Shown here in pieces: positions 40,024 through 63,172 of a stretch of DNA of 64,000 bases. How positions within the stretch are numbered: the stretch's first letter is position 1; each line of letters starts with the position of its first letter. The notes beneath the pieces were generated by a model that had not been told where the DNA came from, made no database searches, and saw only the letters and a list, made by a program, of their open reading frames with translations. The position numbers were made by a program, and so were the translations under genes. The stretch spans positions 682,001-746,000 of the forward strand of contig NZ_CP094468.1 in assembly GCF_023347275.1 (NCBI RefSeq), read 5' to 3'. The DNA comes from Faecalibacterium sp. I3-3-89 (lineage in GTDB: Bacteria > Bacillota > Clostridia > Oscillospirales > Ruminococcaceae).

Positions 40024-40052
40024 TTGAAAAACTACGGAATGTCTGTTATACT
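40024..40052 (+). promoter_or_regulatory. Promoter of the 32-residue toxin-like gene
   Basis: TTGAAA (40024-40029), 17 bases, TATACT (40047-40052). Predicted start ~40059, right at the GAGAGTGCTGCCC arm, leaving a 110-nt structured 5' leader. Confidence 0.7.
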
Positions 40053-40168
40053 TAAAATATGAGAGTGCTGCCCACATACGGCAGGCGGTCTTGCAGCTCT
40101 TTGGCACGGTGTCAGGGAGCCTGCATTGCTGCACCCCTGACGCTTCACTGCGAAAGGGGGGATGGACC

Positions 40169-40267
40169 ATGACGCTTTTGGAGACTTTAGCTCTGCTGAC
40201 GCTGATTGCAACGGTCGGCTTTGGAATGTTCGACATCGCTTGGAAAATCTTCGGCAACAAAAAATGA
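40169..40267 (+). CDS. Small hydrophobic peptide, type I toxin-like (Fst/holin-like)
   Basis: 32 residues: a short start (MTLLET), one hydrophobic helix (LALLTLIATVGFGMFDIAW) and a basic end (KIFGNKK). This is the general form of membrane-acting type I toxins and of the small putative holin-like toxins of Firmicutes. AAAGGGGGG stands seven bases ahead of the ATG, and the stop codon lies inside the terminator stem. An antisense RNA gene converges on its 3' end. Toxicity is inferred from architecture and not shown by sequence. Confidence 0.65.
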   Translation: MTLLETLALLTLIATVGFGMFDIAWKIFGNKK

Positions 40268-40353
40268 CCGCCCCCAGTCTCGCAAACTGAGCGGTCATTT
40301 TTGTGACTAGCCAAAGAGCGAAGACCGTTTGCCGGGCAACACTCTCTTTTTGT
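40259..40353 (-). ncRNA. Predicted antisense RNA of the first type I TA-like locus
   Basis: Minus-strand promoter TTGCCT (40388-40383), 17 bases, TATACT (40365-40360) predicts a start near 40353. The transcript would end at the shared terminator, about 95 nt long. It begins GAGAGTGTTGCCC, closely matching the 5' end of the toxin mRNA (GAGAGTGCTGCCC). Confidence 0.6.
40262..40304. terminator. Bidirectional terminator shared by toxin mRNA and antisense RNA
   Basis: AAAAATGACCGC and GCGGTCATTTTT arms give T-runs on both strands, so convergent transcripts would overlap by about 40 nt. Confidence 0.8.
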
Positions 40354-40491
40354 ATCTATAGTATAGCACGATAACGTGAAAAAGGCAATGGATCTCCTGA
40401 AATTTCAAATATGGACAACTCCCCTGTAAATGGGTTATACTGTTAAGCAGAAAATGCACCGCCGTGTTCTGCACGGCAGAAAGGAATCTTT

Positions 40492-54575: not shown

Positions 54576-54882
54576 AATATCACAAAAATGGCTGTGAAGA
54601 GAAGAGTAAGCTTTCGCATGAGCCTTACCAGAAAGCCCGGAGGATGGAAAAGGGCAGGAGACAGGGAGCTGAAAATGGTCTCGGAGCTGCGCGGACGACG
54701 AGCAAGAGCATTAGTCCGCGACGGGTGCGCCCGTTAAAGCGTCCGGCTGTAAGCAGAAAGAGTTTCTGCCGCAGTTTTGAGGCAGCGTCCGTGAGGATGC
54801 TGCGAACCAAGGTGGTACCACGGAAGTTTCAGGCCTCCGTCCTTGTGCAGCGCAGAGCTGACAGGGACGGAGGCTTTTTTCG
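54576..54882 (+). promoter_or_regulatory. T-box leader RNA upstream of metQNI
   Basis: The diagnostic T-box sequence AAGGTGGTACCACGGAAG is at 54809-54826, followed by the terminator GCCTCCGTC ... GACGGAGGC with TTTTTT (54832-54880). Stem I and the specifier region lie at ~54590-54780. An ATG at 54675-54677 in GCTGAAAATGGTCTC is a candidate Met specifier, consistent with the methionine transporter downstream, but the fold was not computed. Uncharged tRNA-Met would favour the antiterminator and read-through. Confidence 0.9.
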
Positions 54883-60147: not shown

Positions 60148-61200
60148 ATGGGAATCGAATCAGAATGGAAAAACCGGGGCATCCGGGTGGGCAAGCTGCC
60201 CTGCGGCCCGCTGGACAAGATCAGTGACGTGCCGGGCGTCACGGTGGGCCACTGCACGCTGTCGGACGGCGAGGTCCAGACCGGCGTCACCGCCCTGCTG
60301 CCCCATCCGGGGGATATTTTCCACGATAAGGTGATGGCGGCCAGCCACGTCATCAACGGTTTCGGCAAGACCACCGGCCTTGTCCAGATCGAGGAGCTGG
60401 GCACGCTGGAGACGCCCATCCTCTTCACCAACACCCTCAGCGTGGGCACGGTGGAGACGGCGCTGGTGAAGTATATGCTGGACCGGAACCCCGACATCTG
60501 CGAGACCACCGGCAGCGTCAACCCGGTGGTCTGCGAGTGCAACGACAGCGGCCTGAACGACATCCGGGGCCTCCATGTCACCGAGGAAAATGTGTGGGCC
60601 GCGCTGGCCGACTGCCGCGCCGACTTCGCCGAGGGTGCGGTGGGCGCAGGCCGGGGAATGCGCTGCCATGGCCTGAAGGGTGGCATCGGCTCGGCCTCCC
60701 GCGTGGTGGAGCTGGACGGGAAGCCCTACACCATCGGTGCGCTGGTGCTCTCCAACCACGCCGTCTTCGACGACCTCGTAGTGGCGGGCACCCCCATCCA
60801 GACCCTGCTGGACGCCAGCATCCCGCCCCACGAGGACAAAGGCTCTATTATCACGGTGCTGGCGACGGACATCCCCCTCAGTGAGCGCCAGCTGCGGCGG
60901 CTCTGCCACCGGGCGCTGGTGGGCCTGTCCCGCACCGGCTCCTTCTGCGGAAACGGTTCGGGCGAGATCGTCATCGCCTTCACCACCGCGAACCGGGTGC
61001 CCCATGACTCGGAAAAGGCCATCCTGCCAATGGGCATGGTCCACGACGACGCCATCAACCCCCTGTTCCGGGCCGTGGCCGAGTGCGTGGAGGAGAGCGT
61101 CCTGAGCAGTCTGCTCCACGCGGAGACCGTTACCGGCCATCATGGCCGGACGGTCAAGTGCTTGAGTGATCTGCTGAAATATAGCAATTCAACTTTTTAA
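60148..61200 (+). CDS. P1/S58-family (DmpA-like) self-processing aminopeptidase
   Basis: 350 residues. The N-terminal nucleophile fold is recognised from KISDVPGVTVGHCTLSDGEV, CNDSGLNDIRGLHV, GAVGAGRGMRCHGLKGGIGS and the C-terminal GSIITVLATDIPLSERQLRR plus SRTGSFCGNGSGEIVIAFTT. In DmpA autoproteolysis before a Gly-Ser pair exposes the nucleophile Ser; here the pair is Gly232-Ser233. It would release N-terminal residues, often D-amino acids or beta-peptides in this family; substrate unknown. AAGGAG precedes the ATG. Confidence 0.9.
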   Translation: MGIESEWKNRGIRVGKLPCGPLDKISDVPGVTVGHCTLSDGEVQTGVTALLPHPGDIFHDKVMAASHVINGFGKTTGLVQIEELGTLETPILFTNTLSVGTVETALVKYMLDRNPDICETTGSVNPVVCECNDSGLNDIRGLHVTEENVWAALADCRADFAEGAVGAGRGMRCHGLKGGIGSASRVVELDGKPYTIGALVLSNHAVFDDLVVAGTPIQTLLDASIPPHEDKGSIITVLATDIPLSERQLRRLCHRALVGLSRTGSFCGNGSGEIVIAFTTANRVPHDSEKAILPMGMVHDDAINPLFRAVAECVEESVLSSLLHAETVTGHHGRTVKCLSDLLKYSNSTF

Positions 61201-61282
61201 TGCAGCAGCAACAGCGTTGAATTGCATATCGCAAATATGCTGTTTTCATGTCGCACTAATTTCTTGCCTTGCGATAAAATCG

Positions 61283-61321: not shown

Positions 61322-61350
61322 TTGCAGATTGTCGAAAACTGTGTTATACT
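61322..61350 (+). promoter_or_regulatory. Promoter of the 19-residue peptide gene
   Basis: TTGCAG (61322-61327), 17 bases, TATACT (61345-61350); start near 61357. Confidence 0.65.
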
Positions 61351-61427
61351 AATTTTGCTGCTTTGGCGGCAAGGCACTGCACATACGGCAGGCGGTTGGC
61401 CTACACTTCCCGAAAGGGGGTGAGGCA

Positions 61428-61487
61428 ATGCGGATTACTTTCCATATTGGTGAGTTTACTATCACCATTATCGTGAAAAAACGCTGA
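61428..61487 (+). CDS. 19-residue peptide of a second type I TA-like locus
   Basis: MRITFHIGEFTITIIVKKR: an alternating polar/hydrophobic, beta-strand-like peptide with a basic end. GAAAGGGGGTGAGG precedes the ATG, matching the CGAAAGGGGG ahead of the 32-residue peptide at 40 kb. The 5' leader shares CACATACGGCAGGCGGT with that locus, and a strong antisense promoter converges on the gene. Too short for family assignment. It could be a toxin, a leader peptide or a signalling peptide. Confidence 0.55.
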   Translation: MRITFHIGEFTITIIVKKR

Positions 61488-61570
61488 ACCGCCACCTCGG
61501 CAAAGGCGACGGTTCAATAGAGCTTAAAACCTTAGACTAGAGGCTAACCGCTTGTCGCAGTGCCTTTTCT
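61474..61570 (-). ncRNA. Predicted antisense RNA of the second type I TA-like locus
   Basis: Minus-strand promoter is full consensus: TTGACA (61605-61600), 17 bases, TATACT (61582-61577), start near 61570. The transcript would end at GAACCGTCGCC ... GGTGGCGGTTC (stem with G-U pairs) followed by TTTTTT, about 97 nt, overlapping the peptide's last codons. Confidence 0.65.
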
Positions 61571-61616
61571 ATTTTTAGTATAGTTTGTTTTACGCGAATT
61601 GTCAAGCACGGGGAAG

Positions 61617-62195
61617 TTATTTCCGCCGTGCTTTTTTCTTCCGGACGCTGTAGCCGAAGGTGCCCAGCTTTTTGCCCAGTGCCAGATATTCGCCGTGGCT
61701 GTAGACGATGAGCCTGGCCTTGTCGAGGCAGAGCTTGCCATTTTCGTCCAGCAGGCTTTCGTCCACGTCGCAGGCGGCGACTTCAGCGAGGAAGAGGTCG
61801 TGGCTGCCCAGCGGGATGACCTGCGTCACCCGGCATTCCAGATTGACGGGGCTTTCGGCGAGGATGGGGCAGTCCGTCAGCACCGAGCCGGGGGCGGCAT
61901 GGAGGCCGCAGGCCGCGAATTTATCGAAGTCCCGGCCGCTCCTGACGCCGCACCAGTCCACCGACTTCACCAGTGCCTCGGTGGGCAGGTTGATGGCGAA
62001 CTGTCCGCTCTCCTTGATGAGATGGTGGCTGTACCGCTCGGGGCGGACGCTGATGGACACCATGCTGGGCTGGGTGCAGATGGTGCCCGTCCAGCCGATG
62101 GTGATGAGGTTGGGCTTGTCCAGCCCGCCGCAGGAGACCAGCACCGGCGGCTCCGGGTTCAGCAGGGTGCTGCCCCGCCAGCTCTGTTTGTTCAT
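61617..62195 (-). CDS. Flavin reductase-like FMN-binding protein
   Basis: 192 residues with the flavin_reduct split-barrel signature: LISIGWTGTICTQPSMVSIS-like start (NLITIGWTGTICTQPSMVSI), RPERYSHHLIKESGQFAINL and CRVTQVIPLGSHDLFLAEV. It probably binds FMN and reduces it or another acceptor using NAD(P)H; partner unknown. The ATG at 62195 overlaps the glycosyltransferase stop (ATGA) and has AAAGGAAG upstream. The basic tail (SVRKKKARRK) is noteworthy. Confidence 0.87.
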   Translation of the reverse strand: MNKQSWRGSTLLNPEPPVLVSCGGLDKPNLITIGWTGTICTQPSMVSISVRPERYSHHLIKESGQFAINLPTEALVKSVDWCGVRSGRDFDKFAACGLHAAPGSVLTDCPILAESPVNLECRVTQVIPLGSHDLFLAEVAACDVDESLLDENGKLCLDKARLIVYSHGEYLALGKKLGTFGYSVRKKKARRK

Positions 62196-63172
62196 CCGTG
62201 ATACTTCCTTTCGTAGGGTGCCCATGTCCGCTCGCTGATGATGTAGCGGGGGCGGGCCTTGGTTTCCATGTAGATCTTGCCGACGTATTCGCCGATGACG
62301 CCCAGACAGACCAGCTGGACGCCGCCCATGAAGCAGACGATGCAGATGGTGGAGGCCCAGCCGGCCACGACGCTGCCCCTGACCGCCTGCACGATGGCCC
62401 AGAGGACGCCGATGAAGCTGATGAGGCTGACCACGATGCCCGCCCCGGTGATGAGGCGGATGGGCTTGTTCGACAGGCTGGTGATGCCGTCGAAGGCGAG
62501 GGCCAGCATCTTGCGCAGCGGGTAGTGGCTCTCACCGGCCAGACGCTCGTGGCGCTCGTAATAGACGGTGTCGCTGGGGTAGCCCACCAGCGGCACCATG
62601 CCCCGCAGGAAGATGTTCACCTCGCGGTAGTCGGCAAAGCTTTCCAGCACACGGGTGCTGATGAGGCGGTAGTCGGCATGGTTGAAGACGATGTCGGCCC
62701 CCAGCGCGTTCATCACATGGTAGAAGCCCTCGGCGGTGAACCGCTTGAAGAAGGTGTCGGTGTCCCGGCGGCTGCGCACGCCATAGACCACCTCGGCCCC
62801 GGCGAGATACTTCTTGACCATCTCGTCCATGGCGTTGATGTCGTCCTGACCGTCGCAGTCGATGGAGATGGTAATGTCGCAGCTGCCGCTGTGGAGCGCC
62901 TCCATCAGCCCGGCCAGCACGGCGTTCTGGTGGCCGCGGTTGCGGCTCTGGGAGATGCCGATGAAGTGCTCGTCCTCAGCGGAAAATCTCTGGATGAGGG
63001 ACCATGTGGCGTCGCGGGAGCCGTCGTTGACAAAGAGCACCCGGCTCTTCTCGCTGACAAGGCCCGCTGTGGCAAGGTCGTTGATCTTTTTCAGGAACAG
63101 GGGGGCCGTGATGGGCAGCACCTGCTCCTCGTTGTAGCAGGGGATGACGATCCATAGGATAGGTTTGGACAT
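62192..63172 (-). CDS. GT2 glycosyltransferase, GtrB/DPM1-like
   Basis: 326 residues. GT-A domain with VIPCYNEEQVLP, VNDGSRDATW and the metal-binding SIDCDGQDD; RSRRDTDTFFKRFTAEGFYH and RLISTRVLESF are typical of the undecaprenyl-phosphate glucosyl- or mannosyltransferase group. Two C-terminal transmembrane helices follow (ITGAGIVVSLISFIGVLWAI; STICIVCFMGGVQLVCLGVI). It probably loads a sugar onto a lipid carrier for surface glycan modification. AAAGGAG precedes the ATG; the Crp-like gene lies 14 bases upstream. Confidence 0.92.
   Translation of the reverse strand: MSKPILWIVIPCYNEEQVLPITAPLFLKKINDLATAGLVSEKSRVLFVNDGSRDATWSLIQRFSAEDEHFIGISQSRNRGHQNAVLAGLMEALHSGSCDITISIDCDGQDDINAMDEMVKKYLAGAEVVYGVRSRRDTDTFFKRFTAEGFYHVMNALGADIVFNHADYRLISTRVLESFADYREVNIFLRGMVPLVGYPSDTVYYERHERLAGESHYPLRKMLALAFDGITSLSNKPIRLITGAGIVVSLISFIGVLWAIVQAVRGSVVAGWASTICIVCFMGGVQLVCLGVIGEYVGKIYMETKARPRYIISERTWAPYERKYHG

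Follow-up and report, generated by a model that had tools for sequence, protein, structure and literature searches.

A probable chromosomal type I toxin-antitoxin module for a predicted beta-hairpin peptide in Faecalibacterium

Layout of the locus

The window, the whole 64,000-nucleotide stretch of the Faecalibacterium sp. I3-3-89 chromosome that we analysed, carries a compact module at 61322-61640, between two convergent long reading frames. At its left end we read by eye a + strand promoter (61322-61350; TTGCAG-17-TATACT, with a TG upstream of the -10), whose TTG and TA..T are kept across 13 aligned loci of the genus. The sense promoter proposed in the initial annotation is thus present, and it is weak: its -35 fits at 3 of 6 positions, and the best scripted score was 8/12, with an 18-nt spacer. 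Downstream lies a leader arm (61371-61402, + strand) with the segments AAGGCACTGC (61371-61380) and CGGTTGGCCT (61393-61402), followed by a hairpin (61404-61422, + strand; CACTTCCC-GAAA-GGGGGTG), supported by folds and by C-G/T-A covariation at the SD position, that takes in much of the Shine-Dalgarno sequence (SD) GGGGGTGAG (61416-61424, + strand). The frame MRITFHIGEFTITIIVKKR, 19 codons plus stop, occupies 61428-61487 of the same strand. Further on, a 3' arm (61541-61566, + strand) with the segments AGGCTAACCG (61541-61550) and GCAGTGCCTT (61557-61566) pairs with the leader over ~25 bp to form a panhandle; the terminal GGCC of the leader arm has the flank of the SD as an alternative partner. 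The arm segments and the frame all lie where they had been placed at the outset, and the complementarity proposed between 61371-61402 and 61541-61566 was borne out.

On the - strand, we found a promoter at 61577-61605 (TTGACA-17-TATACT) that is kept in relatives; described at first as a full consensus, it matches at 11 of 12 positions. With a terminator hairpin of 15 pairs (61484-61517, - strand; T-run towards 61474), it predicts an antisense RNA of ~96 nt (61475-61570, - strand), whose 5' end, the complement of the 3' arm, copies the leader. The likely sense terminator (61604-61640, + strand), a hairpin (61604-61633) with a T-run, lies over the antisense -35, and a hairpin was present at this position in 35 of 83 family loci versus 39 of 349 control windows. 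The elements assigned to a locus ending at 61605 stand, but the sense RNA likely ends further out, because this hairpin overlaps the antisense -35. As judged from promoter and terminator, the antisense gene overlaps the mRNA, as in type I systems: its predicted transcript (61570-61475) covers the 3' part of the mRNA and leaves the SD (61416-61424) uncovered. For the sense RNA the computed fold reaches -91.5 kcal/mol, with z -6.2, and for the antisense RNA z is -3.75; in each case none of 200 shuffles was as good. A single promoter-like site occurred in 900 bases, versus 0.6 expected by chance, so that a lone site of this kind is weak evidence and the relatives decide.

The locus has no Rfam match at the gathering score, and the sub-threshold hits to L20_leader (24.7 of 58.7 bits) and rli61 (20.8 of 50) were taken as chance. 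A leader peptide of a downstream gene was also rejected: the long frame that follows (61617-62225) runs on the opposite strand, its end falling within the sense terminator. Immediately upstream of the module lies a dispersed repeat of ~100 bp (61180-61279), which is present once in the window; no fewer than nine further copies, at 96-98%, are in the same genome and others in the genus. Elsewhere in the window, a T-box leader (54585-54847) reached the Rfam gathering score with 97.9 bits.

Conservation and predicted fold of the peptide

Among 43 distinct cores of the MRIT type, pS was 0.691 and pN 0.108, a ratio of 0.156 against 1.47 and 2.56 in the shifted frames, and among 29 distinct cores of the MPIT type pN/pS was 0.400, against 1.03 and 2.10; both ratios are biased towards conservation, because the cores were chosen by motif. 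Column permutations of subsamples of 25 reached the observed pN/pS in 0 of 200 trials in either type. Without the peptide filter, 31 frames of 25 codons, including two Hol_Tox-like ones, gave a ratio of 0.251, and 28 frames of 27 codons gave 0.458. By this comparison of sequences, the frame is under purifying selection that is specific to it, and an accidental frame was rejected. Neutral drift of the peptide, named in the initial annotation as an outcome that would speak against it, is excluded, because the frame is conserved and the other two same-strand frames lie at 1.0-2.6. The locus thus combines a short conserved frame with a ribosome site, as is looked for in type I toxin-antitoxin systems.

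The same result bears on the idea that the locus is a regulatory RNA pair in which the frame is incidental and the peptide has no function. Both RNAs are indeed strongly structured, and the C-terminal NRHSAK/NRHPGR of relatives is encoded within the antisense terminator stem. Purifying selection, however, is specific to the frame, and a peptide profile by itself finds loci with altered leaders, as described below; we consider a functionless frame highly improbable.

The hydrophobic moment was larger at 160-180 degrees than near 100 in 64 of 64 distinct cores. AlphaFold2, given a 37-residue relative with 36 relatives, placed strands at residues 3-9 and 12-18, with a block pLDDT of 87-88 over residues 1-20 and 61 beyond, and a pTM of 0.32; the 32-residue peptide of another locus, described below, folded alone as one helix (3-31; mean pLDDT 89). 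The beta-family peptide is therefore a predicted beta-hairpin, modelled on a relative and not on the 19-residue peptide, and the early impression of a beta-strand-like peptide agrees with this model. Membrane-associated type I toxins are described in PMC8309996 as having an alpha-helical transmembrane domain; by prediction, the hairpin of the relative and the beta-period moment of all cores depart from that pattern.

Scans of Pfam, NCBIfam, PHROGs and PADLOC yielded sub-threshold hits at best, and in part none, for the family peptides (two peptides each in PADLOC and PHROGs). On the same kind of leader, locus L036 carries a peptide that resembles Hol_Tox (PF16935; E 3.8e-4), its 20.7 bits falling short of the cut-off of 23.3, whereas the beta peptides do not match that family; nor did the helical Faecalibacterium peptides tested. 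Five peptide fragments did not occur in the open-licence PMC literature searched, and it is possible that the peptides are listed in a database of toxins or small proteins or described in a subscription paper. The same literature yielded no description of the family of modules, and Faecalibacterium, Ruminococc-, Oscillospir- and Lachnospir- are absent from the main text of PMC6563280.

Distribution, toxin exchange and relics

The genome of the window also holds another copy, which encodes MPITLTFHVFGLTFTIRIKK and shares 74% identity across 223 bp. DNA matches were found in 11 of the 31 genomes of the genus, with 13 complete loci in 10 genomes (the window's own counted); antisense-only loci (L017, L021 and L022) occurred in two genomes, one of which holds nothing else. 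A family-level DNA search matched at least 16 of 396 genomes, in 9 of 126 genera, a lower bound given that two candidates were scored per genome, and a count that takes in leader-only and antisense-only matches and the helical locus L036. In the window's genome we also observed an antisense-promoter-like stretch, with a strong hairpin and T-run alongside, at ~1430-1560 of L003 (C1:2729771).

A scan blind to the peptide, with the pattern CGGCAGGCGGTN5-30GAAAGGNGGTG, gave at least 119 stretches from genome contigs and 11 from viral contigs, and the usable set comprised 120 non-duplicate matches among those listed, each with 300 nt or more to its right. Among the matches listed, an antisense promoter scored at least 9/12 in 100 of 120 and at least 11/12 in 86 of 120; the corresponding figures for control windows of the same loci were 67 of 1980 (3.4%) and 16 of 1980. 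When products were classed by motif after the scan, the antisense promoter was in place, again among the matches listed, at 79 of 81 loci of the beta peptide family (75 stretches), 8 of 9 of a Selenomonadaceae type ending in TAA, both loci with Hol_Tox-like products (2/2), 10 of 14 other short frames, 1 of 5 matches with no frame and 0 of 9 long frames. Because 79 of 81 family loci have the antisense promoter against 3.4% of background windows, the module is not a product of chance. The promoter was missing from its place at L153, which looks recombined, and at L115, which has one further away. Beta-family records include assemblies of Gemmiger, Oscillibacter, Evtepia, Agathobaculum, Subdoligranulum, Angelakisella and Lachnospiraceae. 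Modules stand in tandem, two or three in series, at L133, L052, L113, L092 and L029/L042.

Six of the 11 viral (IMG/VR) contigs were inspected. L172 has an integrase in its neighbourhood, L170 an endolysin, the Hol_Tox-like locus L169 a tail sheath and L171 a sigma-factor-like protein; the surroundings of L164 and L166 gave no telling gene. A tblastn search with one family peptide gave no match in phages and a single plasmid record with four places. This 860-kb plasmid record of Vescimonas fastidiosa (NZ_AP023416.1) carries gyrA and has its peptide matches at 309267-309341 and three other places; no annotated feature lies beneath the best match in a gene table that is incomplete.

We also ran a scan blind to the leader, in which a peptide profile (E <= 0.01) was set against 398 genomes of the same phylum and gave 21 matches, two of them inside the window's genome. 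Four matches (L208, L213, L214 and L215) were left out, since they cover the profile in part, have no antisense promoter and are probably chance. The remaining 15 loci, whose leaders deviate from the scan pattern, come from genomes of the same phylum and a different class; of these 15, which the peptide profile alone detected, 14 have an antisense promoter, at 11-12/12 in 13 of them, though the 15 are not independent, because three genomes of a single genus account for 14 of them and one genome for ten. L224 has an antisense promoter of 11/12, but no ATG at the start position of its relatives, and L212 has lost its leader beside an apparent recombinase end (by eye) and keeps a 9/12 antisense promoter remnant. 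In a sample of 391 genomes of the window's own class, the profile matched in 15 genomes, and no complete locus was found beyond the window's own genome. The other 14 matches comprise 12 that lie within long frames and match the profile in part, the relic L195, which has a truncated toxin and an antisense promoter of 12/12, and L200, a 31-residue frame without an antisense promoter.

The initial annotation held that the same RNA control serves an unrelated peptide, and our data agree. The leader pattern detected several unrelated short peptides that share one layout, antisense promoter included. The first locus of the same design to which it referred does exist, at ~40024-40370: it encodes a 32-residue helical peptide, MTLLETLALLTLIATVGFGMFDIAWKIFGNKK, and has its own 5'-3' panhandle, which folds at -128 kcal/mol. 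Moreover, the antisense promoter end of the present locus has matches beside helical-looking peptides at eight or more sites in further genomes of the genus. All eight that we fetched carry the antisense promoter with a short upstream frame, and together they encode five distinct peptides, helical-looking by eye. One of these, of 45 residues, has 196 database relatives, the best 120 of which carry no Pfam domain or telling name.

The toxin frame can also be lost. At a syntenic site, L022 is shorter by ~194 bp than L016 and L020, and at another, ~200 bp of other DNA in L017/L021 replaces ~210 bp of L012; these loci have lost the frame along with its leader and sense promoter but retain the antisense gene. 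In at least three relatives, the intergenic site of the module measures 66-103 bp with a short hairpin, versus ~450-480 bp. Antisense genes with promoter and terminator and no complete toxin frame are found at L017, L021, L022, L038, L043, L044 and L195 (L038, L043 and L044 by eye); such genes could possibly serve as stand-alone antitoxins.

These observations also bear on a further alternative, in which the antisense RNA controls a peptide that does not poison its own cell but acts, for instance, as a secreted antimicrobial or as a signal. The peptides are short, cationic and amphipathic, as this would have it. Against it, the same layout carries a Hol_Tox-like peptide, antisense relics without a toxin fit a frame that is harmful, and no gene for processing and no export signal came to notice in passing beside the window locus; we regard such a role as unlikely.

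RNA pairing and a proposed mechanism

Covariation was assessed in 41 sequences, reduced from 75, on a predicted mRNA structure of 36 pairs. We found that 94.4% of cells were standard and that 157 were compensatory, the latter spread over 18 of the 36 pairs and including changes in 9 of 9 outer panhandle pairs; when partners were slid by 1-3 columns, 32-51% of cells were standard, with 7-17 compensatory cells in 4-8 pairs. The test is favourable to the structure, which was itself obtained from these sequences. Since the antisense RNA always complements the 3' arm, it imposes no covariation on the leader, and the covariation thus speaks for pairing within the mRNA. Across 85 loci, cognate panhandle arms paired at -46.0 kcal/mol versus -37.4 for foreign arms, and the cognate was best or tied in 20 of 85. 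The SD stem extends into the leader, and comparison of 74 loci shows that its cognate halves beat halves swapped among the same SD type (1 of 2000 permutations as good); each locus gains little (0.68 kcal/mol), and 47 of the 74 lie above their own mean. The antisense promoter scored higher than the sense promoter at 68 of 84 loci, equal at 14 and lower at 2; the sets of 84 and 85 loci still contain two Hol_Tox-like peptides.

Computed folds, like the covariation, give a primary transcript that hides its SD. At the window locus, SD openness was 0.15 in the full-length RNA and 0.00 with the 3' arm blocked, trimmed or not yet made, and the GGCC at the leader end swapped the 3' arm for the SD flank once the arm was unavailable. 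Over the family (74 loci), mean openness was 0.180 at full length versus 0.137, greater in the full length at 45 of 74 loci and smaller at 15; the computed effect of such a switch is thus small.

The main rival to our interpretation reverses this logic. It takes the panhandle as a lock, as in Hok or AapA, with translation activated by 3' trimming. Long-distance 5'-3' pairing and SD-masking hairpins, which AapA/IsoA (Helicobacter) and Hok/Sok share with the window locus, mark untranslatable toxin mRNAs in the account of PMC6733600, and the panhandle here is very stable. In those systems, however, it is the far 3' arm that masks the SD, whereas at the window locus the 3' arm pairs with the leader, a local hairpin masks the SD, and no pairing of the panhandle with the SD was found; their toxins also differ from the beta-family peptide. 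In addition, computed SD openness is lower in the trimmed and nascent RNA, and trimming would take away much of the antisense target. We hold a lock of this kind possible but doubtful.

The layout corresponds to that of BsrG/SR4 and TxpA/RatA of Bacillus subtilis, in which, as predicted here, the antisense RNA covers the toxin mRNA at its 3' end and leaves the SD and start site uncovered. In BsrG/SR4, where the antisense RNA pairs at a distance from the SD, the stem at the ribosome binding site grows from 4 to 8 upon pairing, according to PMC4147584, and this resembles the lengthening of the SD stem that we computed for the window locus. The locus differs from both systems in that its antisense 5' end copies the leader, and from TxpA and BsrG in its peptide of 19-30 residues, a predicted beta-hairpin, set apart by Pfam and NCBIfam scans (none above cut-off) rather than by direct comparison. 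The par locus of pAD1 (Fst, RNA I/RNA II) likewise has converging RNAs with repeats in both (PMC4147584), but the par repeats let RNA II pair at the start site of RNA I, whereas here the leader and the antisense 5' end are like copies that cannot pair with one another.

We conclude that this chromosomal locus is probably a type I toxin-antitoxin module in which the two RNAs overlap at their 3' ends, with a toxin of a new, predicted beta-hairpin class. In the mechanism that we propose, the + strand would give a short mRNA that is translated into an amphipathic, lysine-ended peptide, probably toxic to its own cell, and the stronger opposite promoter would yield the antisense RNA. Because the SD lies inside a hairpin, the mRNA is expected to stay silent while it is nascent. 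Two partners are open to the leader: the 3' arm, giving the panhandle and a short SD stem, or the bases just past the SD, giving a long SD stem. Antisense RNA bound to the 3' arm would free the leader and so lengthen the SD stem, and the duplex of the two RNAs may be an RNase III substrate that leads to decay.

More broadly, and with only modest confidence, we lean towards a large class of type I toxins built on a beta-hairpin in place of a transmembrane helix, spread across several families of gut Clostridia and with altered-leader loci outside that class of bacteria; towards unrelated toxins that are exchangeable on one RNA chassis; and towards a leader that acts as a three-way switch among the 3' arm, the SD flank and a competing copy of itself in the antisense RNA. 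A conserved beta-hairpin class, if true, would break the alpha-helical rule and offer a new toxic mode, and toxin exchange on one chassis would mean that RNA control can outlast the toxin. Genes of this kind can be missed by annotation because they are so short, and such modules may go unseen in common gut bacteria.
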